Positions 7,855-22,967 of a stretch of DNA of 64,000 nucleotides are shown here, in pieces. The first letter of the stretch is position 1; every line of letters starts with the position of its first letter. The notes under the pieces were generated by a model. The model worked only from the letters and a program-made list of their open reading frames with translations, was not told the origin of the DNA and made no database searches. This stretch comes from a virus. The stretch is from the IMG/VR virus record IMGVR_UViG_3300034072_002211, positions 124,001-188,000 of that record; one strand, 5' to 3'. Made by a program: the position numbers and the translations under genes.

Positions 7855-8080
7855 CAAAGAGCCTCATATCTTCCGACTCACTATCGGTTACCTTCCTGGC
7901 GGTGGTGCGAAGATCACGGTCGTCAGCTATGACGCCAGCATTGTCTACGTCATGGACGCGGACGAATATTGGATTAATCAGTTCAAGGTGGGCGAGAATC
8001 GCATCCACGTGAATGGATACTTTGACCTCCAGGACAAGAACATCTACCTGGGAGAACGGGTGGAGGGTCTGACGTGGTAA
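7844..8080 (+). CDS. Small unknown protein
   Basis: 78 residues, GTG start 7844 inside the end of the previous gene. It ends VEGLTW, a weak echo of the family terminus, but it lacks the helix and the FKL block, so membership is doubtful. The sequence is mostly beta (HIFRLTIGYLPGGGAKITVVSY). GGAGGG near its end is well placed as the ribosome site for the next gene. Confidence 0.65.
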   Translation: MDADKEPHIFRLTIGYLPGGGAKITVVSYDASIVYVMDADEYWINQFKVGENRIHVNGYFDLQDKNIYLGERVEGLTW

Positions 8081-8283
8081 AGCTGAAGACGTTCAGCCAG
8101 GAATGGCCACACGTCGTTGAAATGCGAGGCGAAGTCCTCTTCGACGATGTCATGGAGTGGGCGTATCAGCGCGCTGAAGCTCTGAACTGCGACACCCGTG
8201 ACATCTACACAAGCTTCAGCCTTGGAACCTATGGATTCAAGGACAAAGCTTTGGCAATGGAATTCAAACTCCGGTTCGGCTAA
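8074..8283 (+). CDS. FKLTWGG-family protein (FKLRFG end)
   Basis: 69 residues, GTG start 8074 after GGAGGG, overlapping the previous stop. It has the family pattern of an N-terminal strand, a helix around VMEWAYQRAEAL, and the C-terminal block YGFKDKALAMEFKLRFG. Function unknown. Confidence 0.75.
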   Translation: MVKLKTFSQEWPHVVEMRGEVLFDDVMEWAYQRAEALNCDTRDIYTSFSLGTYGFKDKALAMEFKLRFG

Positions 8284-8305
8284 ATACCTCATAGGAGGTG
8301 TAGCC

Positions 8306-8572
8306 ACGGAACGGCACATTAGACATCTCGAACCCTATTACTGCCAGAAGCAGACCTTGCTCCTGACATATCCCCACGTTCTGACTCTAGAAGAAGTCAG
8401 AAACATCACAGAAATTTCAGATTGGATCCAAGACATCCACGTGGATTGTCGCTGGCATACCTTCCTCATCAAAAAGCCTGAACTCAAGTTTGATCTGGCT
8501 TATGACTTCTTTTTCAAGCTAGGCAGTGATGCTGTCCTATTCAAGTTGACTTGGGGTGGTTCTGTGCTATGA
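8306..8572 (+). CDS. FKLTWGG-family protein with probable ACG start
   Basis: The frame ending at 8572 encodes a typical member (helix ISDWIQDIHV, end DAVLFKLTWGGSVL), but no ATG, GTG or TTG lies at the expected place. A strong SD AGGAGGT (8293-8299) is followed six bases later by an in-frame ACG at 8306, giving 88 residues. TAAATAC lies 25 bp upstream. An internal TTG at the QTLLL segment is the alternative start. Confidence 0.6.
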   Translation, partial: TERHIRHLEPYYCQKQTLLLTYPHVLTLEEVRNITEISDWIQDIHVDCRWHTFLIKKPELKFDLAYDFFFKLGSDAVLFKLTWGGSVL

Positions 8573-8588
8573 CCTAATTGGAGGTTGT

Positions 8589-8813
8589 ATGCGCGAAGTT
8601 GAGTCCAGCTACCGGCAGTTTCCCACAGCCATTGAGCTGCCCGCGACCTTGCCTGCTCACTCCATGAAGGACTGGTTGGCCAACCAGGGTCTCCGCTTCA
8701 ACTATGATTACATCTGCATTCAGGCACTGATCGGTCGTGAAAGTGTTGGAGCCTATGCGTTCCGCAATCGCGCCCACGCACTGATGTTCAAGATGGCGTT
8801 CGCAGGCACATGA
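8589..8813 (+). CDS. FKLTWGG-family protein (FKMAFAGT end)
   Basis: 74 residues, ATG 8589 after TTGGAGGTTGT. The helix is SMKDWLANQGLRFNYDY and the C-terminus is AYAFRNRAHALMFKMAFAGT, a degenerate form in which Trp is replaced by Phe. Its stop overlaps the next ATG (ATGA). Confidence 0.8.
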   Translation: MREVESSYRQFPTAIELPATLPAHSMKDWLANQGLRFNYDYICIQALIGRESVGAYAFRNRAHALMFKMAFAGT

Positions 8814-9331
8814 ACGTCCATATGCAGATCCGCACCGTTGCGTTCTATCGCGACCAAGGCTTCAACCTCAAGCCCGAGGTATCGCGCTGGCTTACTCAGA
8901 ACGGCTGCTATGAGGGACCTGACCGCGGCTTCGTGGACACTGACGAGGATGCCCGTCCCTTTGAGACTTGGCACAACGTCAATGACGAGTGGGCGATCTT
9001 CTACTTCAACCATGAGGACATGAGCCGTCGCTTCCTCGCAGAATTCGCAGATTGGAAGCCTGAGTTCAACATCGAGGTCAAGCATCGCGTCCGCACGGAC
9101 GAGCGCATAAGCCTCGACGACATCTATGGTGCTCTGGCTGAAGAGTTCATGTGGCTGGCATTGAATGGCTACATGGACGGGGTGGACTACCGCTGGACTA
9201 TTACCCAGCTGAGTCAGGAAAACTTCGACACGGATATCAGGGATACGAGCCTGATCTTCACGTTCAAGGATCCCCAGATCGCAATGGTCTTCAAGCTGAC
9301 CTTTGGAGGCACCAAGTGTTTGATGCCCTAA
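8810..9331 (+). CDS. FKLTWGG-family protein, double-length
   Basis: 173 residues, twice the usual size, ATGA-coupled to the gene before it. The first half has a helix EVSRWLTQNG and a degenerate block FYFNHEDMSRRFLAEF. The second half has EEFMWLALNGYMDGVDYRW and a full block FTFKDPQIAMVFKLTFGG. It looks like a fusion or internal duplication of two family units. The codons for FGG (TTT GGA GGC) provide the GGAGG site for the next gene. Confidence 0.8.
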   Translation: MNVHMQIRTVAFYRDQGFNLKPEVSRWLTQNGCYEGPDRGFVDTDEDARPFETWHNVNDEWAIFYFNHEDMSRRFLAEFADWKPEFNIEVKHRVRTDERISLDDIYGALAEEFMWLALNGYMDGVDYRWTITQLSQENFDTDIRDTSLIFTFKDPQIAMVFKLTFGGTKCLMP

Positions 9332-9627
9332 AGGGAGAATCCCTCGACATTGCGCTCGACAAGGGTGCTGATGTCTACATTGGTCTTGAGACTATGTTGC
9401 GGATTTCTGAGCAGGAAAGCCTGCCTCAGCACAATGACCTACAACACCTCTTCTGGCTGGTTCGCAACCATCTTGAGGAGTGGTGTCGCGCGAACATCAA
9501 AGGTCGCTTCCGTGCTCAACGGGATCTGATCTATCCTCGAAATTCCTCAACCGAGGAAGTCATTTTGTTTAGGTTCACGATGAAAAGTGAAGCCGTTCGC
9601 TTCAAGCTTACCTGGGGTGGCAAATAG
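9316..9627 (+). CDS. FKLTWGG-family protein
   Basis: GTG start 9316, six bases after GGAGG that lies inside the Gly-Gly codons of the previous gene; the two genes overlap by 16 bp. 103 residues with helix FWLVRNHLEEWCRANIKG and end FTMKSEAVRFKLTWGGK. The longer frame starting upstream at 9151 would lie wholly inside the previous gene and is not needed. Confidence 0.75.
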   Translation: MFDALKGESLDIALDKGADVYIGLETMLRISEQESLPQHNDLQHLFWLVRNHLEEWCRANIKGRFRAQRDLIYPRNSSTEEVILFRFTMKSEAVRFKLTWGGK

Positions 9628-9878
9628 TGGAACATGATGTCAAGGTCCATCCCAGCTTGGCCTTCCGTAGCTTTGATGGAACCTATTATCCACAACGCGA
9701 CGTAGAGCTTTGGCTCAAAACCAATCTAGGCAAGCGAGGTGTCTACTCATCTAGGTGGGGGTGGAAAGGCCGTTGGACTGTGAGTCACAGGGCTACCTTC
9801 TCGCTGTTCAGTTTCGCCAATAAGCGCGACGCGGTCCTGTTCAAGTTGACGTGGGGTGGCCGTGAAATTCCCGCATGA
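9627..9878 (+). CDS. FKLTWGG-family protein
   Basis: 83 residues, GTG start 9627 sharing bases with the previous TAG (TAGTG). The helix is DVELWLKTNLGKRGVYSSRW and the end is FSFANKRDAVLFKLTWGGREIPA. A good prototype of the family. Confidence 0.8.
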   Translation: MEHDVKVHPSLAFRSFDGTYYPQRDVELWLKTNLGKRGVYSSRWGWKGRWTVSHRATFSLFSFANKRDAVLFKLTWGGREIPA

Positions 9879-10062
9879 AGTCCGGGTTCCACATGACAAA
9901 GATCCTGAGTTTGGACACCAGACTTTAGAGTGGTTGTCTGCTCGCAAGAAGCGACCTGATCGTGACTTCGAGATTGACATGCACGGTGGACAACTGGGAT
10001 ATACGAGCTTCTTCTTCAAGGACCAGAAGTTCGCCGTCTATGTCAAATTGGTTTGGGGCTAA
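9862..10062 (+). CDS. FKLTWGG-family protein (VKLVWG end)
   Basis: 66 residues from GTG 9862, placed after TGGGGTGGCC of the previous gene; a second in-frame GTG at 9856 is the alternative. The helix is QTLEWLSARKKRPDRDF and the end is FFFKDQKFAVYVKLVWG. Confidence 0.75.
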   Translation: MKFPHEVRVPHDKDPEFGHQTLEWLSARKKRPDRDFEIDMHGGQLGYTSFFFKDQKFAVYVKLVWG

Positions 10063-10069
10063 GTAGGGA

Positions 10070-10249
10070 GTGATCCCGCCGTCTACCTATCACCGTGTGA
10101 CTCGCAGAACTCCACTAAATGAGTTCGGCATGTGGACCTGGCTCCATGGTCGTGCCTACCTCTGGGAACCTGATCCCGATAGGGCTACCGCGCATTTTTG
10201 GTTCAAAGATGCCGATGATGCGGTCATGTTCAAACTCATGTGGGGTTGA
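10070..10249 (+). CDS. Short FKLTWGG-family protein (FKLMWG end)
   Basis: A 59-residue frame from GTG 10070 (or 49 residues from GTG 10097) ends FWFKDADDAVMFKLMWG, a clear family terminus, with helix-like GMWTWLHGRAYLW before it. Neither start has a clean SD; GGGG of the previous gene lies 11 bp before 10070. It fills what would otherwise be a gap in the array. Confidence 0.65.
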   Translation: MIPPSTYHRVTRRTPLNEFGMWTWLHGRAYLWEPDPDRATAHFWFKDADDAVMFKLMWG

Positions 10250-10295
10250 GTCCTAGAATATTGCGGACTGATTCTCTCCTCCGCTAGGGAGAGGA

Positions 10296-10478
10296 ATGGT
10301 CGAGGTAATCTGTAACGGGAATATCCACAACATGACCCTGCTCAAGCGCATGGGTCTGGTTGTCGGCCGTGATTTCACAAGCGAAAAAGGTGCGGTTGCC
10401 AAGGGTCGCCCCAATAGCATCCTCCTGCGGTTTGTGGATAAAGATAAAGCACTTCTCTTCAAGCTGCAGGCAAAATGA
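10296..10478 (+). CDS. FKLTWGG-family protein (LLFKLQAK end)
   Basis: 60 residues, ATG 10296 after GGGAGAGGA. A small stem (CTCTCC / GGAGAG, 10273-10292) includes this ribosome site. The C-terminus LRFVDKDKALLFKLQAK keeps FKL but has lost Trp-Gly. Its stop overlaps the next ATG. Confidence 0.75.
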   Translation: MVEVICNGNIHNMTLLKRMGLVVGRDFTSEKGAVAKGRPNSILLRFVDKDKALLFKLQAK

Positions 10479-10747
10479 AGACCGCTGAAGAATTAGGTCT
10501 TAACCCAGAATTTCCTTATATTGTCTGGGTTGAGATAGATGGCTACATGATGAGCGAAAAGGCTCAGGACCAGCGCGATGCCATGGCCGAATGGTTCCTC
10601 CGTTCTGACTTCGAGGAGGACGACATGGACAGCGTCTATACCAGCAAGGACGCCGCTCGCAATTATTGGAAGTCCACTGCTACGCACATGGTATTTGGTT
10701 TCAAGGATCCACAAAAGGCTGTTCAGTTCAAGCTCGCATGGGGCTAA
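10475..10747 (+). CDS. FKLTWGG-family protein
   Basis: 90 residues, ATGA-coupled. N-terminal strand YIVWVEIDGY, helix AMAEWFLRSDFEEDDMD, and end FGFKDPQKAVQFKLAWG. Confidence 0.8.
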   Translation: MKTAEELGLNPEFPYIVWVEIDGYMMSEKAQDQRDAMAEWFLRSDFEEDDMDSVYTSKDAARNYWKSTATHMVFGFKDPQKAVQFKLAWG

Positions 10748-10755
10748 GTAGAAAC

Positions 10756-10983
10756 ATGGAAACTATTGTTCGCACCCGCAAACTCACCATGGTCAACATC
10801 CAGAACGTCGAGAAATGGCTTGACGAACATCTCACTGGACCAGCAACAATCCGTGGTGCCAATTACAAGGTCTTCATCCAGCAGTATTGCGCGGAGAACG
10901 ACGGTAACAAGAAAATTCACACACTGAAAGTCAGTTTTTTCAGCGAGACCGACGCTCGCCGCTTTCTCATGGAATGGGCTTGA
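10756..10983 (+). CDS. FKLTWGG-family protein (degenerate end)
   Basis: 75 residues from ATG 10756, nine bases after the previous stop. The N-terminal strand METIVRTRKLTM and helix NVEKWLDEHLTG are typical, but the end is VSFFSETDARRFLMEWA, a degenerate block. Its last bases overlap the -35 box of the next promoter. Confidence 0.75.
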   Translation: METIVRTRKLTMVNIQNVEKWLDEHLTGPATIRGANYKVFIQQYCAENDGNKKIHTLKVSFFSETDARRFLMEWA

Positions 10984-11007
10984 CATTTCACCTCTTTCTG
11001 CTAATTC
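10980..11007 (+). promoter_or_regulatory. Promoter, TTGACA-N16-TAATTC
   Basis: -35 TTGACA 10980-10985 and -10 TAATTC 11002-11007, 16-bp spacer, upstream of the 11026 gene. The -35 overlaps the stop codon of the previous gene. Confidence 0.65.
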
Positions 11008-11025
11008 AGGGCAGAAGGAGGACAC

Positions 11026-11280
11026 ATGGCAGACCTACGCGATATTCCTGAGATCTACCCGCATGAGGTGACCCTCAAGCACAAGGGCGAAGTCTACAAG
11101 GTTAGCCTCGCCGTTGTGAAGTGGCTCGAGGCCCAGGAGATCATGAATATCGTGGACTTCCACCTCGACATGAACTTCGAGGAAGATCGGATCGCTGTGC
11201 TGTTCAAGCAGAAGAAGCACGCCAAGACCTTCAAGGCATCCAAGAAAGAGATCCGTGACCGCGCTCTCTCCGAAGCCTAA
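11026..11280 (+). CDS. FKLTWGG-family-like protein with basic tail
   Basis: 84 residues, ATG 11026 after AGAAGGAGGACAC, the strongest SD in the array. Family features are the N-terminal strand YPHEVTLKHKGEVYKV, the helix AVVKWLEAQEIMNIVDF, and AVLFKQKKHAKTFKASKK in place of the usual terminus. The C-terminal 20 residues are charged (KKEIRDRALSEA). Confidence 0.75.
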   Translation: MADLRDIPEIYPHEVTLKHKGEVYKVSLAVVKWLEAQEIMNIVDFHLDMNFEEDRIAVLFKQKKHAKTFKASKKEIRDRALSEA

Positions 11281-11494
11281 GCGGAAGGTCTTCCGTTACA
11301 AGGTAGCCATCCGGATCAAGAACCTGCAGGTTCGCGAGATGATGACCTGGCTTCATGACCAGGGCCATGTGCTCCACGAAACTGTCAAGTTCGGAGCCAA
11401 CAACGAAGTCGATATGCAGACCCGAGACATCATCGTGAAGTTCCGCAAAGCCAGAGCAGCGATGATGTTCAAGCTCGCGTGGGGTGGTCGATGA
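11255..11494 (+). CDS. FKLTWGG-family protein
   Basis: 79 residues, GTG start 11255 giving a 26-bp overlap with the previous gene. Basic N-terminus (PKPKRKVFRYKV), helix EMMTWLHDQGHVLHE, end AAMMFKLAWGGR. The next start is coupled as ATGA. Confidence 0.75.
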   Translation: MTALSPKPKRKVFRYKVAIRIKNLQVREMMTWLHDQGHVLHETVKFGANNEVDMQTRDIIVKFRKARAAMMFKLAWGGR

Positions 11495-11787
11495 CCACCC
11501 ATGTTTGCCTTTCAGCGCGTGATGAAATCTACGACGGCTATGGTATCCGCAAGGATATTCACCAGTGGCTTCGCAATCACGTGGGTCGCGCAGCTCATGA
11601 CCAGACGGATTTTATCTGGTCTAGGGCAGGCTATCGCCTCATGATTACCAACTCCCGGGCCAATCCCCAATATATCACCCCAAGCATGGTCACGGTGCGC
11701 GAGCCCAACGATCCCATATTCCTTCATTTCTTCTTTAAGAGCACGGCAATCGCAACCCTCTTCAAGCTGACGTGGGGTGGACAATGA
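11491..11787 (+). CDS. FKLTWGG-family protein
   Basis: 98 residues from ATG 11491, preceded by GTGGGGTGGTCG of the upstream gene. The helix is DIHQWLRNHVGRAAHDQTDF and the end is FFFKSTAIATLFKLTWGGQ. An upstream frame extension (MGWS) is only the read-through of the previous terminus. Confidence 0.8.
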   Translation: MTTHVCLSARDEIYDGYGIRKDIHQWLRNHVGRAAHDQTDFIWSRAGYRLMITNSRANPQYITPSMVTVREPNDPIFLHFFFKSTAIATLFKLTWGGQ

Positions 11788-12212
11788 TCGTGGATGATGG
11801 CTCCCGTGAGAAAAAGGTCCTGAGTCTGTTGACCCGTGCCGCGCGGGACAAGCTGACCACTGTGGACCTCGCCCTCCCACATCCAGAACTGGTCATCAAG
11901 AAAAAGCAGGTCCGGCGGGGCAATTCCAGCTCATGGGTCTACAAGGCCAATGAGCAGGACGATGACGTCATTGTGCTGCTGATGCCCGACATGGGTCTGT
12001 GGCTGGATGAGCGGGCCAAGCGCGCTCCGGTGTTCCACGACATCTATGGCAAGCCCGACCATCTCTATACCTATGGAATTGAGCTGCGCTGTAAGAATAC
12101 CCGTGCGCCGGGCGAAGTCGGCGGGTGGAGCAAAGAACCCACTCATGCGCGCTTCTACTTCGTGAGCAAGGATCTTGCGCTCCTTTTCAAGCTAACATGG
12201 GGTGGAGCATGA
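11784..12212 (+). CDS. FKLTWGG-family protein, long
   Basis: 142 residues from ATG 11784 after TGGGGTGGACA. The N-terminal half is an extra segment rich in charged residues (DDGSREKKVLSLLTRAARDK). The family helix is GLWLDERAKRAPVFHD, followed by FYFVSKDLALLFKLTWGGA. Confidence 0.8.
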   Translation: MIVDDGSREKKVLSLLTRAARDKLTTVDLALPHPELVIKKKQVRRGNSSSWVYKANEQDDDVIVLLMPDMGLWLDERAKRAPVFHDIYGKPDHLYTYGIELRCKNTRAPGEVGGWSKEPTHARFYFVSKDLALLFKLTWGGA

Positions 12213-12460
12213 TGCACCCTAATCGTCCCGTGATCGCCGAGGTCATCATTCCGGTTGGTGATTTTCCCTGGCATGTCCAAATGGAAAATGGCCGGCCCCG
12301 GCGTTATTATAGCGACCTCAGTGAGCCCATGATTGAGACCAAGGGGATGCCCAAGACCTATGGACTCAACAGGGAAGGAACGCACGTCGTATTCAAGTTT
12401 CACAATATCGAGGACATGCCTCGGATTATTGTGTTCAAGATGAAGTGGGGAAGAAAATGA
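12209..12460 (+). CDS. FKLTWGG-family protein (FKMKWG end)
   Basis: 83 residues; ATG 12209 or the adjacent ATG 12212, after TGGGGTGGAGC. The helix position is not obvious here. The end is FKFHNIEDMPRIIVFKMKWGRK. Confidence 0.75.
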   Translation: MMHPNRPVIAEVIIPVGDFPWHVQMENGRPRRYYSDLSEPMIETKGMPKTYGLNREGTHVVFKFHNIEDMPRIIVFKMKWGRK

Positions 12461-12711
12461 CGCCGCAACAGAAAGCCATGGGCCAGCTTCTTCAGGTCAG
12501 TCTGTTCAAGTGGGCGGATGCGGTTCAGTCCAATATCAACGAGCTCAAGCGGCTAGGGGTTGACTCCAGCCAGCTGGATCAGATCGCCCTCAATGTGGAA
12601 AAGGTCATCGACCAGACCATTGAAGGTACCAAGCCCGAAGATATCACTATGGCTGATCTGGAACGGATCAACGATCAGATTGTTCAGCTCAAAGGGCTGA
12701 TTCGTGACTAG
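12457..12711 (+). CDS. Small helical protein, not family
   Basis: 84 residues, ATG 12457 after GTGGGGAAGAAA. Mostly alpha-helical with heptad-like spacing (DQIALNVEKVIDQTIEG ... DLERINDQIVQLKGLI), probably a coiled coil. It lacks the family terminus but is translationally coupled to members on both sides. Confidence 0.75.
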   Translation: MTPQQKAMGQLLQVSLFKWADAVQSNINELKRLGVDSSQLDQIALNVEKVIDQTIEGTKPEDITMADLERINDQIVQLKGLIRD

Positions 12712-12985
12712 GGTGATGTATCTGGATGTTGAGTGGACTCGTGTCCGTCTTAACAAAAAGAACATGGACATCACATTGCGAACTGATGGCTTCCGTGAAT
12801 GGGAAGACATCAGAGTCCCCGATGAAGTCTGGGTTTGGCTCAATACTTATACTGGAATTGTCCAGAGCAATCTCATCACCGAAAGTAATTGGTGGTGGGA
12901 TCGCAAAGCTGATGACGAAGACCACATCTACTTCTTCTTCAGGGATCCAGACACCGCCCTCCAATTTAAGCTGACCTGGTCATGA
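12704..12985 (+). CDS. FKLTWGG-family protein
   Basis: 93 residues from GTG 12704 with AAGGG eight bases upstream; ATG 12716 is the alternative. Helix EVWVWLNTYTGIVQSN; end YFFFRDPDTALQFKLTWS. ATGA overlap with the next gene. Confidence 0.75.
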   Translation: MTRVMYLDVEWTRVRLNKKNMDITLRTDGFREWEDIRVPDEVWVWLNTYTGIVQSNLITESNWWWDRKADDEDHIYFFFRDPDTALQFKLTWS

Positions 12986-13221
12986 GCGAGATCACAGACG
13001 TCGTTGTTCCATTTCTCAACGTGGCTACGTTTGATGGTCGACGTCGTCCCAATGTTCTCATGAACCCTGAGATTGACACGTGGTGTCTCAACTGCAAGGG
13101 CGAGGTCAATCGGCAATATCTCTTTGGCCGGAGCAAAGACCCCACAACGTTCAAAGTGCTGTTCGGCTTCTCTAACCCAGCCGATGCCGTCATGTTCAAA
13201 TTGACGTTTGGAGGCGCGTGA
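12982..13221 (+). CDS. FKLTWGG-family protein
   Basis: 79 residues, ATGA-coupled. The helix region is replaced by IDTWCLNCKGEVNRQYLFG with a Cys-x2-Cys pair; the end is GFSNPADAVMFKLTFGGA. Confidence 0.75.
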   Translation: MSEITDVVVPFLNVATFDGRRRPNVLMNPEIDTWCLNCKGEVNRQYLFGRSKDPTTFKVLFGFSNPADAVMFKLTFGGA

Positions 13222-13236
13222 CACCATACTGGTGTT

Positions 13237-13674
13237 ATGAGAATTGCCCACACCTATGACGTCACCTTTCATGGCAAGCTAAAAGAGCTCGAGACTCCGG
13301 CTATGAAGTCCTTCTGGATCCAGCCGGATCAGGGTGATCGTTTCGAGGTGTCGGTTCCCAACCATCCCAAGATTCTCGAGCATTTTATCTGGCTGGACGA
13401 GAATGATTGTCTGCGCCACCTCAGACATATTAGTCCCACCTACACGACCAACGTCGATGAAGTGGAATCCATCCAGAACTACAATGCCATGTTGGAAGAA
13501 AATGCCTACGCCATGGGTAGCGTGGTCAAAAACTACAGCATGACCTCAGCCGGCTATAAGACCTACATTCCAGGTCTGAAGCCTGTCCCTGAGCTCACAT
13601 TTACCTGCACTTGGACCTTTTGGTCCCGCGAACATGCTGTTATGTTCAAGCTCGCTCGAGGAGGTGAATTGTGA
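13237..13674 (+). CDS. FKLTWGG-family protein, long
   Basis: 145 residues, ATG 13237 just after an 13-bp element CACCATACTGGTG (short inverted repeat). A long insert separates the N-terminal strand (YDVTFHGKLKEL) from the terminal block WTFWSREHAVMFKLARGGEL. GAGGAGG within the Gly-Gly codons serves the next gene, which overlaps as GTGA. Confidence 0.75.
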   Translation: MRIAHTYDVTFHGKLKELETPAMKSFWIQPDQGDRFEVSVPNHPKILEHFIWLDENDCLRHLRHISPTYTTNVDEVESIQNYNAMLEENAYAMGSVVKNYSMTSAGYKTYIPGLKPVPELTFTCTWTFWSREHAVMFKLARGGEL

Positions 13675-14033
13675 TTCTTGAGGAAAAGAACGGCGTCTTC
13701 ATGATTATCCCAGAAGAGGGAGAAAGCTTCTGGGCCTATGATCCCATTGACATTCACAAGGCTCTAACAAGCCGCCCCAAGATCCGCACGGTGCTCAAGG
13801 ATTGGCTTGACGTAACGGCGCCGGGTCAGTGGACTACCAGCTATCTGGAGAAGTTCCGCAAAGCCATCGTAGTGCGGGACAAGGCCACCTTTCTGCTGTT
13901 CAAGCTCGCATGGACAGGCAAGGATGAGATCCGAAGGGCTCAGGCCCAGCGCGGAGAGGCTGCGATGTTCTATGCGCCCTATGTGCCACAGAATCTCCCC
14001 CAAGTTACATGGGCTTCCAACGACGTCGTATAA
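13671..14033 (+). CDS. FKLTWGG-family protein with C-terminal extension
   Basis: 120 residues, GTG start 13671. The family block (FLLFKLAWTG, about residues 75-85) is followed by about 35 extra residues (IRRAQAQRGEAAMFYAPYVP), one of few members where the block is not terminal. Helix TVLKDWLDVTAPGQW. Confidence 0.75.
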   Translation: MILEEKNGVFMIIPEEGESFWAYDPIDIHKALTSRPKIRTVLKDWLDVTAPGQWTTSYLEKFRKAIVVRDKATFLLFKLAWTGKDEIRRAQAQRGEAAMFYAPYVPQNLPQVTWASNDVV

Positions 14034-14037
14034 CTGG

Positions 14038-14065
14038 TAGACAGGTGTCCTGTTTCCGCTTATAG
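14038..14065 (+). promoter_or_regulatory. Promoter, AACTGG-TAGACA-N16-TTATAG
   Basis: AACTGG directly precedes -35 TAGACA 14038-14043; -10 TTATAG 14060-14065; 16-bp spacer. It lies upstream of the 14073 gene and carries the same AACTGG box as the minus-strand promoters in the right half. Confidence 0.6.
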
Positions 14066-14072
14066 GGGGCCT

Positions 14073-14480
14073 ATGAGCGGATCAACCTATAAGAGCACTC
14101 TGCGTAAGCAAGAGGACCACAAAGACCCTCTACGGGCGTCTGTGGGCCATATGAGGGCATCTAAGTGGGGCAACAAAGAGACCTTCCAGTCCAACATTAT
14201 CTTCCGCAAGCCCGTTATTCGCAACCACGAAATCCAATTGAGCTGGCCTGAAGCCCACAAGCTCTTGGACGCCGCTGGTATCGAGCAACCCAAATATCTT
14301 TCCGACTATCGCGCAACGGTAGATCGTCTGGCCAGGCATCTAGAGTTCTGGTCCTATGGCAATCTGGTGCATGGATTGGACACGAATGTCTGGGGGACAA
14401 CCCTAGAACCCAAACTACAGATCTTCTTCCAGACCAAAGCTGATATGATAAAGTGGAAGCTCTCATGGTGGAACCTGTGA
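14073..14480 (+). CDS. FKLTWGG-family protein (WKLSWW end), long
   Basis: 135 residues, ATG 14073 after TAGGGGGCCT. A basic N-terminal region (MSGSTYKSTLRKQEDHKD) precedes the family core; the helix is DRLARHLEFWSYGN and the end is IFFQTKADMIKWKLSWWNL. Confidence 0.75.
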   Translation: MSGSTYKSTLRKQEDHKDPLRASVGHMRASKWGNKETFQSNIIFRKPVIRNHEIQLSWPEAHKLLDAAGIEQPKYLSDYRATVDRLARHLEFWSYGNLVHGLDTNVWGTTLEPKLQIFFQTKADMIKWKLSWWNL

Positions 14481-14752: not shown

Positions 14753-14758
14753 AGGCAC

Positions 14759-15515: not shown

Positions 15516-15536
15516 GAGACACCTCCTAATGTGAGA

Positions 15537-15543: not shown

Positions 15544-15559
15544 TGACACTAAGTAGGAA

Positions 15560-16463: not shown

Positions 16464-16491
16464 GATCCTAGACATCAACACTTTTGAAGAG

Positions 16492-16712: not shown

Positions 16713-17048
16713 TTATTCTTCAGGGGTGATCCGCCTAGGAAGAACCAAGAGCTCTCCACCAAAGCGTAGGTGGAACAATGCTGCGGTATGATTGTCACGA
16801 AAGAAGAATTGAAAGAACTGGCTAGTGCGCCACCACGCGACCCCGCCATTCTCTTCGTCATGCATGTCAGGCACCGTAGCCTCTAGCCAATCCCAAATGG
16901 CCCAGCAGGGCATGGGACCTCGATACTCGGGATCGATCGCAACTTCCTCTTCGTTGCGGTTCTCCATATAGGGGAGAGTGATCTCAACCCATCCCGGAGT
17001 GTGAAGGCCATTCCTCGGCCCCATGGCCTGTGAGCCAATATGTCTCAC
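16713..17048 (-). CDS. FKLTWGG-family protein with C-terminal extension
   Basis: 111 residues from GTG 17048 (GTGA overlap with the upstream stop). Helix AIWDWLEATVPDMHDEENGG; block FFFRDNHTAALFHLRFGG, then about 14 extra residues (LVLPRRITPEE). Last gene of the leftward array. Confidence 0.75.
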   Translation of the reverse strand: MRHIGSQAMGPRNGLHTPGWVEITLPYMENRNEEEVAIDPEYRGPMPCWAIWDWLEATVPDMHDEENGGVAWWRTSQFFQFFFRDNHTAALFHLRFGGELLVLPRRITPEE

Positions 17049-17347
17049 TGACCGCCCCACAACGTCTTGAAATATACCGCGTGCTTGGCTTCCTTGAAGA
17101 AGAGGCCGATCCATCGCTTACCAGGAATCACACCAGCATCCGGGCCACCCCACTCCACATACCAACCCCAAGTCTCGTTCTTGGGATCCAGCTGATCGCC
17201 TTCGGTCAAAAACCTCTCATCCATGGCCGGGCCCGCAACTTGCTCTAGAAGGGCCAGCGCGGGGCCTGTAAGCTTGATCTGCATGCCCCAGTCAACGACA
17301 TGCTCAGCATCAATGACAATGCGAGTGAAGCCCTCAGGGACTTTCAT
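17045..17347 (-). CDS. FKLTWGG-family protein
   Basis: 100 residues, ATG 17347 (ATGA). End FFKEAKHAVYFKTLWGGQ; the preceding region GWYVEWGGPDAG resembles the strand pair before the block. Confidence 0.78.
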   Translation of the reverse strand: MKVPEGFTRIVIDAEHVVDWGMQIKLTGPALALLEQVAGPAMDERFLTEGDQLDPKNETWGWYVEWGGPDAGVIPGKRWIGLFFKEAKHAVYFKTLWGGQ

Positions 17348-17562
17348 AGGGCACCCCAGGCAAGCTTGAACAATGTGGCCTTCTGAGGGTCCTTGAACCG
17401 ATAGATCATGAAGCCCATCTGGAAGTCCACAGCATAATCCCAAGTGTCGCTGCCAATTCTAGCAGGCTGTATATTCGCCCAGGTCTTCTTGATCCATTCT
17501 TCACAGAAGTGAACTCTGGTGATCCAGTCTTTGCCGTCAGGCACCCGCACGTCATAGGTCAT
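17344..17562 (-). CDS. FKLTWGG-family protein
   Basis: 72 residues, ATG 17562. Helix HFCEEWIKKTWANIQPAR; end YRFKDPQKATLFKLAWGAL. The GGTGCC codons replace GGTGG before the next ATG. Confidence 0.8.
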   Translation of the reverse strand: MTYDVRVPDGKDWITRVHFCEEWIKKTWANIQPARIGSDTWDYAVDFQMGFMIYRFKDPQKATLFKLAWGAL

Positions 17563-17936
17563 AGGGCACCCCAAGCAAGCTTGAAGAGCATTGCTTGATC
17601 TTTGTCCAAAAAGCCCACGTGCCATCCCGGCTCCATGGAGTTGTTGGCATAGCGAAACTCAAACTGGTAAGCGCGCTCTAGACCAGCATTCACAAGCCAC
17701 TCATGAACTTCGTCCTTGAGACGAAAGAAGCCGTCATGGCCCTCGCTGTGACAGGGACGACTCACAATGTCTTGAGGTTGGCCCGGACCGCCCGGACGAG
17801 GACAAACTACGATCCTACACCGATCGGACTCGTAGAACTCCCTGACAGTGTTTGCCCGTTTGTCGTTGATTAGAACCCAATGGAGACTGCGACCCGAACG
17901 GTCGAGAAGTCTAAAGGGGATAACGGGTTCTTCCAT
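17559..17936 (-). CDS. FKLTWGG-family protein, long
   Basis: 125 residues, ATG 17936. The N-terminal 55 residues are additional (RLLDRSGRSLHWVLIND). Helix EVHEWLVNAGLERAYQFEF; end VGFLDKDQAMLFKLAWGAL. It begins about 20 bp after the previous stop rather than overlapping it. Confidence 0.78.
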   Translation of the reverse strand: MEEPVIPFRLLDRSGRSLHWVLINDKRANTVREFYESDRCRIVVCPRPGGPGQPQDIVSRPCHSEGHDGFFRLKDEVHEWLVNAGLERAYQFEFRYANNSMEPGWHVGFLDKDQAMLFKLAWGAL

Positions 17937-17956
17937 GCCACCCGCTTTAGCACCTG

Positions 17957-18220
17957 TTAGCCAAAGGTCAACTTGAACCGCGTGGCCTCATCCGAATCCT
18001 GGAATGTTATGAGAACAGTCTGTCCAAAGCGCGGTCCCATATCAAAGGGTTCATCAACCCAATTGGGGAATACTTCAAAGGCGTCTGTGACGTGGCAAAC
18101 GCTATGACCCTTGAGGACATGGTTGGCAAGCCAATCAAGTCGATCCTTCCACCAGAATGCGAGCTCATCAGCATCGCCTTTTGGGATGGTCTGACTTACC
18201 AAGTAGGGATAGAACTTCAT
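17957..18220 (-). CDS. FKLTWGG-family protein
   Basis: 87 residues, ATG 18220 (ATGA). Helix DRLDWLANHVLKGHSVCHV; end ITFQDSDEATRFKLTFG. Confidence 0.8.
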   Translation of the reverse strand: MKFYPYLVSQTIPKGDADELAFWWKDRLDWLANHVLKGHSVCHVTDAFEVFPNWVDEPFDMGPRFGQTVLITFQDSDEATRFKLTFG

Positions 18221-18447
18221 GTCCACCTCAGTGCGAACAGGATAGCATCCAGTCGCTTCTCAAAATACCAGAGAGTCATATTGTTATGGCCGAGGTAGAG
18301 GTTGCTGAAATGTCCGCGCAGACATTCATCTACCCAGCGCATCTGTTCTTCCTGATCCTCATACCCTTTGGCTTTGACTGTTCGCCAGCCATCGCCCGGA
18401 TCATGATGAAATCTGGTATAATACTTCTCTCTACCTAGCAACCACAT
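18217..18447 (-). CDS. FKLTWGG-family protein (FALRWT end)
   Basis: 76 residues, ATG 18447, overlapping the upstream gene by 13 bp. Helix QMRWVDECLRGHFSNLY; end WYFEKRLDAILFALRWT. Confidence 0.75.
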   Translation of the reverse strand: MWLLGREKYYTRFHHDPGDGWRTVKAKGYEDQEEQMRWVDECLRGHFSNLYLGHNNMTLWYFEKRLDAILFALRWT

Positions 18448-18725
18448 CCATGCACCAGACGGAACATCCTAGCCATCTTCTTGTCAGAAAAGTAGAAGCT
18501 CACTAGGGAATTATCTCGATCTGCCTGCAGGTCATCATTGTGCGTTAGGACGCAATAATCACTGTGCCAGAGCCAATCTACCAGATCCACGATGTCATCG
18601 AAGACGTCTGGGCGCTTGGTGCTCACACGGGCTTGGACTACGTGGGGATGGCCGGAGAGCCAGATATCACGGAGATAGTGACCCTCACTCGCACCCACGT
18701 GATAGCAATACCACTTCAAGCCCAT
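18435..18725 (-). CDS. FKLTWGG-family protein (degenerate end)
   Basis: 96 residues, ATG 18725. Helix DIVDLVDWLWHSDYCVLTH; block FYFSDKKMARMFRLVHGCGC, with Trp lost and two cysteines at the terminus. Confidence 0.72.
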   Translation of the reverse strand: MGLKWYCYHVGASEGHYLRDIWLSGHPHVVQARVSTKRPDVFDDIVDLVDWLWHSDYCVLTHNDDLQADRDNSLVSFYFSDKKMARMFRLVHGCGC

Positions 18726-18964
18726 GTTAGCTTGAATAGCACCGCCTGATCAGGATTCCTAAAATAGAATGTCATTGTGGAAGCAGATAGTGGCAGATCA
18801 TGATGCCAATCACCCGTGGGGCCATTGGTAAAGAAACGAGCCTTCTCACCAATGTTGTCCTCAAGCCACTTACGGATCTCTGCCCTGGGACCTAAGCGGT
18901 TGACCAAGACGTTCATGGCCTTGCCCACAGGTAACTCCACAGGAGTCCAACATTCCCAGCTCAC
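18716..18964 (-). CDS. FKLTWGG-family protein
   Basis: 82 residues from GTG 18964 (GTGA). Helix EIRKWLEDNIGEKARFFTN, among the most typical; end FYFRNPDQAVLFKLTWA. Confidence 0.8.
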   Translation of the reverse strand: MSWECWTPVELPVGKAMNVLVNRLGPRAEIRKWLEDNIGEKARFFTNGPTGDWHHDLPLSASTMTFYFRNPDQAVLFKLTWA

Positions 18965-19248
18965 AGAAACGTCAGCTTGAACATTGCTGCCTCTGCGTTG
19001 TCCTTGATCCTCAACTCCCACATCTGATTCAACTGAGGCACAAGATCATAACCGCTTGGTAGCATCTGGTGAGCCATGTCGGTCAAGAAGTAATGCGGAG
19101 CCATCCTGATACCAGGGCTCTTGGGATCCTGCCATCCAGAGACAACCTGCCGGTCCGTGGGAGGCTGTGACCCATGGGAATACCAGAGCCAGTTATGGCG
19201 AGCTGGACTCATATCCAGCTTGTGAGGAATCTTGAAAACTACACCCAT
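18961..19248 (-). CDS. FKLTWGG-family protein
   Basis: 95 residues, ATG 19248 within the last codons of the upstream gene. The middle is diverged (HYFLTDMAHQMLPSGYDL); end LRIKDNAEAAMFKLTFL. Confidence 0.75.
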   Translation of the reverse strand: MGVVFKIPHKLDMSPARHNWLWYSHGSQPPTDRQVVSGWQDPKSPGIRMAPHYFLTDMAHQMLPSGYDLVPQLNQMWELRIKDNAEAAMFKLTFL

Positions 19249-19532
19249 CTAAGCTTGAATAGCATGGCTTCCTTGGGGTCCGCAAATACGAACTTGAGCC
19301 CAGTAAAGCCAGACACTACCGCGCCGCCTTGCTCGATAGCACTGAAGCTGATGTCGATGACATGAACATCATGACTCACATTGGCCATAAGCCACTGATC
19401 AGCCTCGTCGGTGGTCGTCCAAGGATAGTAATGAGGGAACTGCTCATGACGAGGACGCAAGGCGCCATTGCCCGGCCCCTCGATCTCCACGATCGTTGCT
19501 GGCTTCCCAGATATGGTTGTGATGATTCTCAT
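19239..19532 (-). CDS. FKLTWGG-family protein
   Basis: 97 residues, ATG 19532 (ATGA). N-terminal strand MRIITTISGKP, helix EADQWLMANVSHDVHVIDI, end FVFADPKEAMLFKLRWV. Confidence 0.8.
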   Translation of the reverse strand: MRIITTISGKPATIVEIEGPGNGALRPRHEQFPHYYPWTTTDEADQWLMANVSHDVHVIDISFSAIEQGGAVVSGFTGLKFVFADPKEAMLFKLRWV

Positions 19533-19798
19533 GAGAAGGTCATCTTGAACAAGAGTGCGTCGCCGTGGTTGGTCTCTGGGAAATGGAAGAACGCTTCGTT
19601 ATCCTCAGAGTAGCCAAAGTTAGTTGCGAGGAATCTCTGCCCTAGCCACTCCTTGATCTCCGGTATGGGTTCCCAGACACCTCGACCACTATTAACATTG
19701 TCCGTGTAGGCCATAGAGGTCCAAAAGTTCAGGCAGATGACCGTTCCTGGGCCAAAGCGAATCTTCATCCAATCACTGGCCCGCTCATTGGCTTCCAT
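19529..19798 (-). CDS. FKLTWGG-family protein
   Basis: 89 residues, ATG 19798. Helix EIKEWLGQRFLATNFGY; end FHFPETNHGDALLFKMTFS. Confidence 0.78.
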   Translation of the reverse strand: MEANERASDWMKIRFGPGTVICLNFWTSMAYTDNVNSGRGVWEPIPEIKEWLGQRFLATNFGYSEDNEAFFHFPETNHGDALLFKMTFS

Positions 19799-20033
19799 TG
19801 GACGCCTCTAGCTTGAAACGAATGGCATCTATGCGACGCCTGAACTTGAAGAGAACATAGGAGAATGTCTCACTGATCACCACGACATAATCCTCACGAT
19901 CCATGCCATCGGCATGGAACCAAAAACGGATGAAGTCCTTGATGCGATACTTGGGGAACAGAGGAATGGTCTCTTCCTCCGCGGCATCCCAAAGGGACAT
20001 ATAGACCGAAAAGCGGCAGTCTCCGTAGCTCAA
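19785..20033 (-). CDS. FKLTWGG-family protein, TTG start
   Basis: 82 residues from TTG 20033, which overlaps the upstream stop as TTGA and follows TGGGGTGGTCG. No ATG or GTG occurs at the junction. Helix IKDFIRFWFHADGMDRED; end FKFRRRIDAIRFKLEASNG with the Trp-Gly lost. Confidence 0.7.
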   Translation of the reverse strand: MSYGDCRFSVYMSLWDAAEEETIPLFPKYRIKDFIRFWFHADGMDREDYVVVISETFSYVLFKFRRRIDAIRFKLEASNGSQ

Positions 20034-20326
20034 CGACCACCCCAAGTGAGCTTGAACAGTAGGGCATCGCAGGGCTTTTTGAAACCATAGCAAACCCTGA
20101 GAACCGGGCTGATATAGCTCTTCATATGATCACGCGACTCCAACCACTCACCAACCTCAGAACGAGAATGGCTGGGCTTCCAATCATCCCAGATCATGTG
20201 GTGATAGCCATTGGCATTCATGTCAGCTGTGATCTCATGATAACGGCGCTCCACCATGCGAGCTAGATCGTCCTCATCTTCCTTGATCGTCGCCTGATTA
20301 GGAATCCAAAAGACTTGCTGCTTCAT
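20030..20326 (-). CDS. FKLTWGG-family protein
   Basis: 98 residues, ATG 20326 after TGGGGTGGTCA. Helix EVGEWLESRDHMKSYIS; end YGFKKPCDALLFKLTWGGR. Confidence 0.8.
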   Translation of the reverse strand: MKQQVFWIPNQATIKEDEDDLARMVERRYHEITADMNANGYHHMIWDDWKPSHSRSEVGEWLESRDHMKSYISPVLRVCYGFKKPCDALLFKLTWGGR

Positions 20327-20598
20327 TGACCACCCCAAGTGAGCTTGAAGATCAGAGCATAGACCCTATCGTCTTCATGAAAGCAAACATAACGACCAGG
20401 AAACATGCGCTCCGCCCTACGGCTATAGGACTGAATACACCACTGGCGGCGCTCCAGGGACGACCTCTCAGAACCACCTGGCATGTGAGTTAGCCCAAGT
20501 GCTTCTCCCCAATCCTTCCATGCTGCTAGGGCTGTGACAAAGGCATTGACGGCAGGCCATTCAGGTGGACTTGGTTCTTTGACGTAGACGCGGATCAT
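20323..20598 (-). CDS. FKLTWGG-family protein
   Basis: 91 residues, ATG 20598 after TGGGGTGGGAA. The helix is VTALAAWKDWGEALGL; the end is VCFHEDDRVYALIFKLTWGGQ. Confidence 0.8.
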   Translation of the reverse strand: MIRVYVKEPSPPEWPAVNAFVTALAAWKDWGEALGLTHMPGGSERSSLERRQWCIQSYSRRAERMFPGRYVCFHEDDRVYALIFKLTWGGQ

Positions 20599-20780
20599 TT
20601 CCCACCCCAAGTGAGTTTGAACAGGAGAGCGATCTTGGGATCATGGAAGTAGAAGTTCCTACCCTCCCGCCCATTCACATTGGCGGCCCATGACGTCCAC
20701 TCCTCGCCTATAGCATAACAATCCAACCAGTCATAGACTTCGTTGGGAACATCCAAGTGAGTGGTCCTTACTCTGATCAT
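20595..20780 (-). CDS. FKLTWGG-family protein, minimal
   Basis: 61 residues, one of the shortest: ATG 20780, strand MIRVRTTHLDV, helix EVYDWLDCYAIGEEWTSW, block FYFHDPKIALLFKLTWGGK. It shows the minimal domain clearly. Confidence 0.82.
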   Translation of the reverse strand: MIRVRTTHLDVPNEVYDWLDCYAIGEEWTSWAANVNGREGRNFYFHDPKIALLFKLTWGGK

Positions 20781-21010
20781 CCCCACACCAACTTGAACAA
20801 CACAGCTTCGCCTGGATCCATGAAGATGAACTTCAGGGCAATCTCATCATCTATGCGAATCCGCTCCACCCTATAATACCAAGAGCAGTTCTCATAACAC
20901 CAATACTCTAGGTGGTCATAGAGGTGAGGACCAAGCCACACATTGTTACCAACCTGTTCCTTCTCCCCAATCTCCATGAGACGGCGACGATTGAGGACAA
21001 CCTCTTTCAT
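20777..21010 (-). CDS. FKLTWGG-family protein
   Basis: 77 residues, ATG 21010 after TGGGGTGGGGA. The region LYDHLEYWCYENCSWYYRV takes the helix position; end FIFMDPGEAVLFKLVWG. Confidence 0.8.
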   Translation of the reverse strand: MKEVVLNRRRLMEIGEKEQVGNNVWLGPHLYDHLEYWCYENCSWYYRVERIRIDDEIALKFIFMDPGEAVLFKLVWG

Positions 21011-21234
21011 TCCCCACCCCACGTCAGTTTGAACAGTAGAGCGGTGTCACGATCCTTGTCCTCAAACACGAACGCAATCCCATCGTCCTTGACATCATAG
21101 TCCCAAGCGTCATCACAGCGTTCCTGAATCCACTCAATGACTTCGTAGATAACAACCTCACTGGTCCCCCAGGGAGATTCGTGGTCCTCGACTTCCATGA
21201 AGATCTTGTGGAGGGGAACGGTGACGCAGATCAT
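21007..21234 (-). CDS. FKLTWGG-family protein
   Basis: 75 residues, ATG 21234. N-terminal strand MICVTVPLHKIFM, helix VIEWIQERCDDAWDYDV, end FVFEDKDRDTALLFKLTWGGE. Confidence 0.8.
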   Translation of the reverse strand: MICVTVPLHKIFMEVEDHESPWGTSEVVIYEVIEWIQERCDDAWDYDVKDDGIAFVFEDKDRDTALLFKLTWGGE

Positions 21235-21539
21235 TCCCCACCCCACCTGAGCTTGCAGAGCACCGCACACTTGGCTTCCTTGAACTGGAACACCATTCCC
21301 TCACGAGTTGGAGGGAAACCAAAACGAGCCTGGTTCCTTTGTTCCCAGCAGGAGTTCCAAGAAGGACAGAACTCAAGCAGCCAAGTCGAGAACTTGTCCG
21401 TGGGCACTAGACCATGAACGAATTTACCATCAGCCGTCTTACCCTGAAACGTCTCGATGAGACCATTGGCACTCACAGTCCGGCGAGCACCAAATCGCTC
21501 CGCTGGATCACGGTCAAAGGGAATGAAGACATAGAACAT
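21231..21539 (-). CDS. FKLTWGG-family protein
   Basis: 102 residues, ATG 21539. Helix FSTWLLEFCPSWNSCWEQRN; end FQFKEAKCAVLCKLRWGGE. A 43-bp gap with two CTATAG copies separates it from the upstream gene, so transcription or regulation may restart here. Confidence 0.78.
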   Translation of the reverse strand: MFYVFIPFDRDPAERFGARRTVSANGLIETFQGKTADGKFVHGLVPTDKFSTWLLEFCPSWNSCWEQRNQARFGFPPTREGMVFQFKEAKCAVLCKLRWGGE

Positions 21540-21582
21540 ATGAACTCTATAGAGAGCACCAGTTCAAGATGTCACTATAGAG

Positions 21583-21870
21583 TTAGGTCCAGGTCAGCGC
21601 AAACCGCCGAGCACCCTTGAGACCCCGTAGATGAACTTCAACAGGCGTGATCACACCATCGCTGGAATTCTGCTCAACATAGAAATCACCGGAGAGATTC
21701 TCCTTGAGCCAGTGGAAAGTCTCCGCGAACTCACTCTCAAGCCAGATGTCCTTCTTCACAGGAAAGGGATGACCAGGATCCCAATCTCCCGGAACCAAGA
21801 ACACCCAAGAGTAGTTGAACCCCGGCAAGATCCATGGATAGTCACCTGGGTTGAAACGAGCACTCTTCAT
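21583..21870 (-). CDS. FKLTWGG-family protein (FALTWT end)
   Basis: 95 residues, ATG 21870 (ATGA). Helix TFHWLKENLSGDFYVEQ; end VHLRGLKGARRFALTWT. Confidence 0.78.
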   Translation of the reverse strand: MKSARFNPGDYPWILPGFNYSWVFLVPGDWDPGHPFPVKKDIWLESEFAETFHWLKENLSGDFYVEQNSSDGVITPVEVHLRGLKGARRFALTWT

Positions 21871-22298
21871 CCCCATGTGAGCTTGACAAGCACCAACTGA
21901 TCACCCGGAACCCAAACTGTCATGGGCTCCTTGTTGTCCCGGATGAACTTGATCTCATCCACTATAGGGAAGTCACGAGCCTGACACCAATCCAGAAACT
22001 CCCCAACACGATCTGAGGGAATATCCAACTTGATCTCCTCATATCCCCGCTCAACAAGATCCTCTATAGTGACGATGGTCTCATTGTCAGACTCATCCCA
22101 CTTCAATAGAGTGGCGTTGAAACGAAGCTTGAACTGAAGAGCATACCGCTTATCCCTGAACTCCACATTGTAGATCATGTGACCAGCTTCATCCCGCCGG
22201 TTACAATCCCGGTAGTCCCCATACCCTTCATAGAGCACAAAGGACTCCACCTCCCAAAGATCATTGTGCTCACTCGAGACATCAAAGACGTAAGTCAC
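21867..22298 (-). CDS. FKLTWGG-family protein, two-domain
   Basis: 143 residues from GTG 22298 (GTGA). A first family block YNVEFRDKRYALQFKLRFN lies near residue 55, and a second unit follows with helix VGEFLDWCQARDFPIVDEI and end VPGDQLVLVKLTWG. It is a clear tandem fusion of two units in one protein. Confidence 0.8.
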   Translation of the reverse strand: MTYVFDVSSEHNDLWEVESFVLYEGYGDYRDCNRRDEAGHMIYNVEFRDKRYALQFKLRFNATLLKWDESDNETIVTIEDLVERGYEEIKLDIPSDRVGEFLDWCQARDFPIVDEIKFIRDNKEPMTVWVPGDQLVLVKLTWG

Positions 22299-22546
22299 AA
22301 TCCACCCCACGTGAGCTTGAACAATGTAGCCTTCCGAACATCATCAAACTTGAACGTCACATTGCTGGGTCCCCTGGTAGCACGCAATCCCCAAGCATCC
22401 CATCCATTACCAACTATGTTCAGATTGCTGTCGGTGGCATCCACTATCCCACCCACATGGCTATAGAGCCAAGACACCATGTCCCTGGGCAAGAACCCAT
22501 TCTCCAACTCTACGGAGATCATAACATAAGGCGTGGGCGAACTCAT
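22295..22546 (-). CDS. FKLTWGG-family protein
   Basis: 83 residues, ATG 22546. Strand YVMISVELENG, helix DMVSWLYSHVGGIVD, end FKFDDVRKATLFKLTWGGL. Confidence 0.8.
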   Translation of the reverse strand: MSSPTPYVMISVELENGFLPRDMVSWLYSHVGGIVDATDSNLNIVGNGWDAWGLRATRGPSNVTFKFDDVRKATLFKLTWGGL

Positions 22547-22568
22547 TAGACCCTCTATAGAGAGAAAC

Positions 22569-22967
22569 CTATCCCCACGTCAACTTGAACAGGAGAGCTA
22601 TATCCCGCTCCGATACGTTGAACCAATAATGACCCATGAGCGGTCCATAGGTGTAATCAGGCTCTCTATAGAGATGAGAATCAGGACCCTCACGAACATC
22701 CCCATAACGGTAAGAAATCGCATACGTCCCAGAGATGATCTTGAACGGATCCTTCCCACCATGCCGGTATCCATCATACCCAACAGCATCCTGGATAGCC
22801 ATACCCTGCTCAGATAACCTATAGTGAAGACCCTGAGCTTCTAACCAATCCATAGGCTCCCGGCGATGAGGATACGCACCGTCACGGCGGCGAACCCATA
22901 CCCGCTCATTGGTCAATGCTAGATTGACCCTGAGCATATCCCCTATAGTGGTGAGATCACTAGACAT
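22569..22967 (-). CDS. FKLTWGG-family protein, first of minus array
   Basis: 132 residues from ATG 22967; ATG 22991 is the longer choice. Helix PMDWLEAQGLHYRLSEQ, long insert, end WFNVSERDIALLFKLTWG. It is the promoter-proximal gene of the leftward array. No SD was recognised, and CTATAG copies sit just upstream (22978, 23004; 26 bp apart). Confidence 0.75.
   Translation of the reverse strand: MSSDLTTIGDMLRVNLALTNERVWVRRRDGAYPHRREPMDWLEAQGLHYRLSEQGMAIQDAVGYDGYRHGGKDPFKIISGTYAISYRYGDVREGPDSHLYREPDYTYGPLMGHYWFNVSERDIALLFKLTWG

Follow-up and report, generated by a model that had tools for sequence, protein, structure and literature searches.

Multiplication of one small domain within a jumbo phage is a known kind of event, since Bacillus phage G carries a lineage-specific expansion of a zinc-ribbon protein, with about 35 copies (PMC7824862). 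Here we describe a set of small paralogous genes in a 64,000-nucleotide stretch of viral DNA (the window), positions 124,001-188,000 of the 277,444-base virus record IMGVR_UViG_3300034072_002211. These genes belong to one uncatalogued family of small domains, present at about 50-100 copies per genome in a group of jumbo phages that are relatives of Sinorhizobium phage Phosso. As in the zinc-ribbon set (PMC7824862), a small domain of unknown function is present in dozens of copies in a single jumbo phage genome. However, the fold in phage G is a zinc ribbon, whereas the roughly 50-100 copies described here lie in packed, coupled and collinear arrays common to several phages, and our family profile found no match in phage G.

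Other described systems share single features with the family. The predicted β-α-β-β-α topology is common in the ferredoxin-like/RRM/PII/ACT superfamily, and a tandem member apparently has the full β-α-β-β-α-β order. Nevertheless, no sequence relationship to this superfamily was found, structure matches were generic (best E 0.4), RNP motifs are absent and short members lack the last strand. In the viral structure library BFVD, the best matches were unnamed proteins of uncultured Caudovirales, with weaker ones for Agrobacterium phage Atu_ph07, phiM9 and BcepSauron. Atu_ph07 is low in copy number (4 matches at E<=0.01), and BcepSauron has about one marginal match. Finally, translational coupling by ATGA overlap and an internal Shine-Dalgarno site has been reviewed (PMC12548453). 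The arrays resemble it, with the start lying on the stop and the ribosome-binding site inside the upstream gene. They differ from such coupling in general in that the site recurs as part of a protein-family signature (WGG), so that the ends of many members carry the launch site for the following gene.

Recovery of the family in the window

A preliminary description of the window had proposed about 50 small paralogues in three arrays. All 1,436 stop-to-stop open reading frames (ORFs) were scanned. Nineteen regular-expression seeds ending in the FKL[T..]W block were used to build a 26-residue C-terminal profile which, iterated over the window ORFs, matched 36 of them at E<=0.02. A full-domain profile (62 positions), begun from one short member once relatives were added, recovered 50 ORFs at E<=1e-3, 45 at 8.0-23.0 kb and 5 at 36.9-39.7 kb. 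It had no match at this threshold in the rest of the window, and the best value in a reversed-sequence control was E=0.49. When the cut-off was loosened to E<=1, the second array comprised 8 ORFs. Because this profile had already seen the window, a second one was built without this phage, from a foreign seed and trained on other phages only. It recovered 43 window ORFs at E<=1e-3 (40 at 8.0-23.0 kb, 3 at 37.1-39.6 kb) and none elsewhere, with a best reversed-sequence value of E=0.9. Since both profiles recover the members and the controls are empty, the ORFs form one real homologous family, and its size in the window had been correctly estimated. Family genes occupy about 78% of 7.8-23.0 kb, or about 12 kb. 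These conclusions rest on one alignment (A4) and on profiles built directly from DNA.

The signature residues given in the preliminary description recurred in the 110 aligned members (W in 109, A in 108, K in 107 and L in 106), and the reported lengths of 59 to 218 residues were borne out. Two of the three proposed arrays were confirmed. The third, a gene pair at 49.6-50.1 kb, was not matched by the full-domain profile even at E<=10. This pair (49564-50096, -) consists of two small overlapping genes with the ends LKWG and VKWG and no profile support; it possibly reflects tail mimicry or very remote members. The first array is formed by two converging runs, on the + strand to about 16.7 kb and on the - strand from 23.0 kb, with an endolysin gene inside:

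8074-16698, +, array 1a, about 24 members and a few other genes, mostly with end-to-start overlaps
16713-22967, -, array 1b, converging run, about 21 members
37079-39596, -, array 2, 5 members at E<=1e-3, or 8 at E<=1; contains a tandem two-domain member

The family had initially been left without a name, and none was provided by the libraries. Scanning the 110 members against Pfam and PHROGs gave chance-level matches only, and PADLOC gave single-member matches (best E 0.009), none above chance. A profile search of PDB sequences revealed no relative above chance. In tblastn searches of 50,697 phage records with single members, Phosso alone was matched, weakly. Scanning 85,000 genomes of bacteria and archaea for a DNA pattern returned 2 stretches, judged to be at chance level, and literature searches found no description of the family. 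In the libraries and literature searched, there appears to be no earlier description of the scaffold, of an expansion on this scale, of the conserved collinear arrays or of the coupling tail.

Predicted fold and the terminal WGG

AlphaFold modeling with the 110 aligned members gave strands at positions 7-12, 35-40 and 45-50 and helices at 17-26 and 53-63, with a mean predicted local distance difference test score (pLDDT) of 88.4. The members are thus predicted to share a β-α-β-β-α fold, ferredoxin-like, with the last strand absent in short members. One shared fold had been expected, but with a single strand between the helices, whereas the model places two there. The tandem member at 37079-37735 was modeled as two domains, each followed by one extra strand (residues 95-99 and 200-203). 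This model is less certain (pLDDT 75, predicted template modeling score 0.51); domain 2 repeats the fold, domain 1 less surely. Strand 4 of the ferredoxin-like order, missing in short members, is modeled twice in it. As the tandem member apparently has the complete order, the short array members resemble the same fold minus its last strand.

Entropy was below 1 bit at W23, F50, A56, F59, K60, L61 and W63, and reached 3.5-4.2 bits at positions 8, 36, 38, 39, 47 and 49 of strands 1-3. The conserved set (W23, W35, F48, F50, A56, F59, K60, L61 and W63) corresponds for the most part to the hydrophobic scaffold; alternate strand positions (8, 36, 38, 47 and 49) and the loops are nearly unconstrained. 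This alternation suggests that the two helices cover one face of the sheet, the opposite face being open and variable. The net charge of members is spread around zero (mean -1.1), and therefore carries no DNA-mimic signature. A structure search of the PDB retrieved only generic ferredoxin-like, PII, RRM and KH folds, at E 0.4 or worse. In BFVD, many unnamed small phage proteins were matched with a probability of 1.00 and template modeling scores of 0.65-0.78.

Adjacent members often overlap by four bases (ATGA), the start of the next gene lying on the previous stop. Many end in W-G-G plus one residue, with the DNA TGG GGT GGN NNA TGA. The DNA of the terminal WGG, TGGGGTGGN, has the look of a ribosome-binding site for the gene that follows: GGGGTGG approximates the anti-Shine-Dalgarno complement with two G-U wobbles, and about six bases separate the core from the next ATG. 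One example is the following:

20330-20336, -, embedded ribosome-binding site GGGGTGG, from the TGG GGT GGT codons of gene 20323-20598
20324-20326, -, ATG that follows this site, gene 20030-20326

A downstream start overlapped by ATGA was found for 69 of 109 WGG tails, compared with 63 of 171 other tails (p=1.7e-5). The codon of the first glycine was GGT in 54 of 69 coupled cases and in 4 of 14 uncoupled ones (p=5.8e-4, the uncoupled group being small); against a background of 35%, its excess in coupled cases gave p=1.6e-12. The second glycine of the same proteins displayed no such excess (GGT in 17 of 69). Moreover, the two terminal glycines lie beyond the last helix in the AlphaFold model. 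Given the overlap enrichment, the GGT bias of the first glycine and this position, the best explanation for the two signature glycines is that their codons form a ribosome-binding site inside the coding sequence, and not that they belong to the fold. ATGA overlap, upstream Shine-Dalgarno site and codon choice are together those of a translationally coupled operon. A purely DNA-level origin of the C-terminal conservation was rejected. Indeed, the upstream block F-x-F-x-D-P-x-x-A-x-x-F-K-L has free synonymous codons and folds as a strand and a helix, so that a DNA explanation is needed for the GG tail only.

Related phages, gene order and neighboring genes

Relatives were located in IMG/VR by a degenerate DNA pattern, and copy numbers were determined with the A4 profile at E<=0.01. 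The family was present in 30 of 31 records tested. The whole 277-kb record (G000) has 70 members; further members therefore lie in small groups beyond the window. Uncultured relatives with records of 417-465 kb have 86 (G001), 103 (G007), 94 (G010) and 90 (G014), two more distant records 27 and 29, and the cultured Sinorhizobium phage Phosso 54. No member was detected by the family profile in phiKZ, T4, RaK2, phiM9 or XacN1. Kinship with Atu_ph07 and Phosso was independently indicated by a virion-type protein about 30% identical; because of the hosts of these two phages, the host is likely an alphaproteobacterium. Homologous arrays, looked for in related phages, were found; in seven phages, 73-86% of the span of the array consisted of family genes.

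Among 345 members from ten phages, 230 had a cross-phage relative at E<1e-8 and 11 a same-phage relative that close. The 21 reciprocal best pairs between G000 and G001 follow the same order in both phages (Spearman 0.98), and the change from + to - strand near 16.7 kb is shared as well. The corresponding values for this phage were -0.97 with G006 (inverted) and 0.90 with G022. The ratio of nonsynonymous to synonymous substitution rates (dN/dS) of orthologous pairs was about 0.07-0.45 where dS was measurable, values that are rough because many dS are near or beyond saturation. Between G006 and G022, identity was 66% for family genes and 81% for neighboring genes. Family genes evolve faster than the backbone, yet they are constrained. 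Altogether, these sequence comparisons indicate that the divergence of members predates the split of these phages and that each copy is individually maintained under purifying selection of its own, in agreement with the earlier impression of separately selected copies. Fast diversification at present is not supported, as the divergence is ancient and gene order is collinear between phages. Recent tandem duplication was ruled out, close same-phage paralogues being rare. The individual members, with lengths in amino acids (aa), are:

8074-8283, +, member, 69 aa; G001 ortholog 52% identical
8366-8572, +, member, domain region, coordinates without assigned start codon; orthologs up to 67% identical
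8589-8813, +, member, 74 aa
8810-9331, +, member, 173 aa
9316-9627, +, member, 103 aa
9627-9878, +, member, 83 aa; GGGGTGG ahead, within 3' end of previous gene
9862-10062, +, member, 66 aa
10070-10249, +, shortest member, 59 aa
10296-10478, +, member, 60 aa
10475-10747, +, member, 90 aa; ATGA overlap with preceding gene
10756-10983, +, divergent member, 75 aa (E=9e-4)
11026-11280, +, member, 84 aa
11255-11494, +, member, 79 aa
11491-11787, +, member, 98 aa; ATGA overlap, GGGGTGG 3 nt upstream
11784-12212, +, member, 142 aa; ATGA overlap, GGGGTGG 3 nt upstream
12716-12985, +, member, 89 aa
12982-13221, +, member, 79 aa; ATGA overlap
13237-13674, +, member, 145 aa; three phages with orthologs 50-54% identical
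13671-14033, +, member, 120 aa, C-terminal extension
14477-14728, +, divergent member, 83 aa
14759-15079, +, member, 106 aa; last ahead of endolysin; uncoupled, WGG codons TGG GGC GGA
15560-15796, +, member, 78 aa; best conserved between phages (58-71%)
15793-16062, +, member, 89 aa; ATGA overlap
16492-16698, +, member, 68 aa; structure model m519cec19e2e8, pLDDT 88.4
16713-17048, -, member, 111 aa
17045-17347, -, member, 100 aa
17344-17562, -, member, 72 aa
17559-17936, -, member, 125 aa; G001 ortholog 81% identical
17957-18220, -, member, 87 aa
18217-18447, -, member, 76 aa
18435-18725, -, member, 96 aa
18716-18916, -, member, 66 aa
18961-19248, -, member, 95 aa
19239-19532, -, member, 97 aa
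19529-19798, -, member, 89 aa
19785-20033, -, divergent member, 82 aa
20030-20326, -, member, 98 aa; ATGA overlap, GGGGTGG 3 nt upstream
20323-20598, -, member, 91 aa; 3' end TGG GGT GGT CAA TGA
20595-20780, -, member, 61 aa
20777-21010, -, member, 77 aa
21007-21234, -, member, 75 aa
21231-21539, -, member, 102 aa
21583-21876, -, probable divergent member, 97 aa (E=0.011)
21867-22298, -, long member, 143 aa; two family-like motif blocks, one terminal; orthologs 60-67% identical
22295-22546, -, member, 83 aa
22569-22967, -, member, 132 aa; opens array 1b
37079-37735, -, tandem two-domain member, 218 aa; orthologs in five other phages 43-50% identical
37744-38004, -, member, 86 aa
38001-38306, -, member, 101 aa
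38347-38562, -, probable divergent member (E=0.042)
38575-38832, -, probable divergent member (E=0.051)
38825-39064, -, divergent member (E=9e-4)
39061-39318, -, member, 85 aa (E=7e-4)
39315-39596, -, probable divergent member (E=0.052)

Other genes accompany the arrays. The endolysin is kept at the same place in G001, G007, G010 and G014, and an 84-residue helical gene outside the family likewise keeps its place within the array among the relatives examined. In four relatives, a short membrane protein, possibly a holin, adjoins the second array member; none was seen there in the window. An HNH-type protein is among the array neighbors in two phages. None of these recurrent neighbors names the function of the family.

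12457-12711, +, helical non-family gene, 84 residues
15072-15515, -, M15-type endolysin, opposite to the surrounding + array (Pfam E 2.6e-17, PHROG endolysin E 3.5e-34)
39665-40819, -, TPM-domain protein (Pfam E 5e-32) with Ser/Gly-rich tail, adjoining array 2 on its upstream side
43799-45049, -, glutamyl-tRNA synthetase-like gene (Pfam tRNA-synt_1c E 3e-80); no tRNA gene in the window
L120 1362-1634, short membrane protein in a relative
L121 4677-4970, short membrane protein in a relative
L117 15335-15625, short membrane protein in a relative
L122 1455-1844, short membrane protein in a relative

A dense cluster of the palindrome CWCTATAGWG (CTCTATAGAG and variants) was observed at 21.5-24.15 kb of the window. 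Exact copies number 12 in the 277-kb record, and all are confined to 2.6 kb where the minus-strand array has its upstream end. From array 1b to a tail-repeat gene (24455-26038), about 1.4 kb (23.0-24.45 kb) is rich in CTATAG palindromes and has no convincing gene. Four related phages have the cluster at the corresponding position. It may represent a regulatory, replication or partition site restricted to a single locus.

L120 14.57-15.92 kb, palindrome cluster in a relative
L121 16.9-17.94 kb, palindrome cluster in a relative
L116 13.68-13.85 kb, palindrome cluster in a relative
L118 14.8-17.35 kb, palindrome cluster in a relative

Possible roles of the members

Small phage proteins are commonly used as inhibitors in host takeover or counter-defense. 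There is about an even chance that the family is a specialized set of small binding proteins of this kind, with one partner per member. Such a set fits best because one scaffold with a variable open face occurs in dozens of separately conserved copies which look set up for joint production and are restricted to phages. The conserved, helix-covered side would serve as the scaffold, and contacts would be made by the open face of the sheet together with the loops. Each member would grip a different partner, in all likelihood an enzyme or a defense component of the host. Produced jointly from what appear to be two converging polycistronic runs, the members would be released together during infection as host-takeover and counter-defense binders. 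The wider proposal of an undescribed scaffold turned into a library of 50-100 specialized binders in each phage, every one directed at a separate component of the host, with conserved tail codons chaining the genes by supplying ribosome-binding sites, is tentative, falling somewhat short of an even chance.

Several points weigh against a set of dedicated binders. Neither anti-defense nor host-takeover annotation was found for the 110 members in Pfam, PHROGs or PADLOC, although the PADLOC result is weak evidence on counter-defense because its models cover defense and not counter-defense. The array adjoins lysis and tail genes, which is untypical of a purely early host-takeover region. Finally, the invariant charged K60 could equally fit a shared contact with nucleic acid or protein, that is, one common partner. 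The diversified repertoire of the preliminary description is retained in part: inhibitors of host targets or defenses are plausible, whereas decoys are disfavored, since copies mimicking one target should stay alike. An arms-race repertoire or set of fast-evolving decoys, diversified recently within each phage, would account for the extreme differences outside the core, but is very improbable in view of the shared ortholog order across phages, dN/dS well below 1 and the rarity of close same-phage paralogues.

The nearly invariant lysine (107/110) would also suit RRM-type modules acting as RNA- or DNA-binding regulators, for instance of phage or host messages. The ferredoxin-like topology and the presence of RRM and KH among the generic PDB matches point in the same direction, as does the FxFxDPxxAxxFKL stretch from strand 3 to helix 2, which we take to resemble the same stretch of RRMs. 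Yet the RNP1/RNP2 aromatics are unconserved (aromatic in 43% at position 49 and in 8% at position 47), no Pfam RRM family, including RRM_1, was matched (one member touches RBD_ZCCHC3_1st, E=0.032), and the mean net charge is slightly negative, so that we consider this role unlikely. Members might instead be packaged as structural or ejected virion proteins. Packaging usually needs a shared signal, however, and the shared sequence is limited to the fold and to the tail doubling as a ribosome-binding site; this role is rather improbable, even with arrays near tail and lysis genes and with jumbo phages rich in uncharacterized virion proteins (78% of the 131 virion proteins of Atu_ph07 are without function; PMC6102473). 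Translational coupling with collinear order, the existence of a tandem two-domain fusion and short members without the fold-completing edge strand would all be consistent with a heteromeric assembly, in which members pair through open sheet edges into a multi-part structure and coupling sets their proportions. Member number and identity nevertheless vary between phages, with many positions lacking an ortholog and just 12-21 reciprocal best hits shared by G000 with related records. This is loose for a fixed machine, and such an assembly is doubtful.

Most jumbo-phage genes are unnamed. Because one domain accounts for about 50-100 genes per genome in several phages, the role of this scaffold, once found, would explain a sizeable part of several genomes at once. 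The cultured relative Phosso, which grows on Sinorhizobium meliloti and has 54 members, makes the question accessible to laboratory tests. In addition, the coupled tail offers a concrete case of a family signature that would be partly a translation signal, and a warning for motif-based guesses of function.

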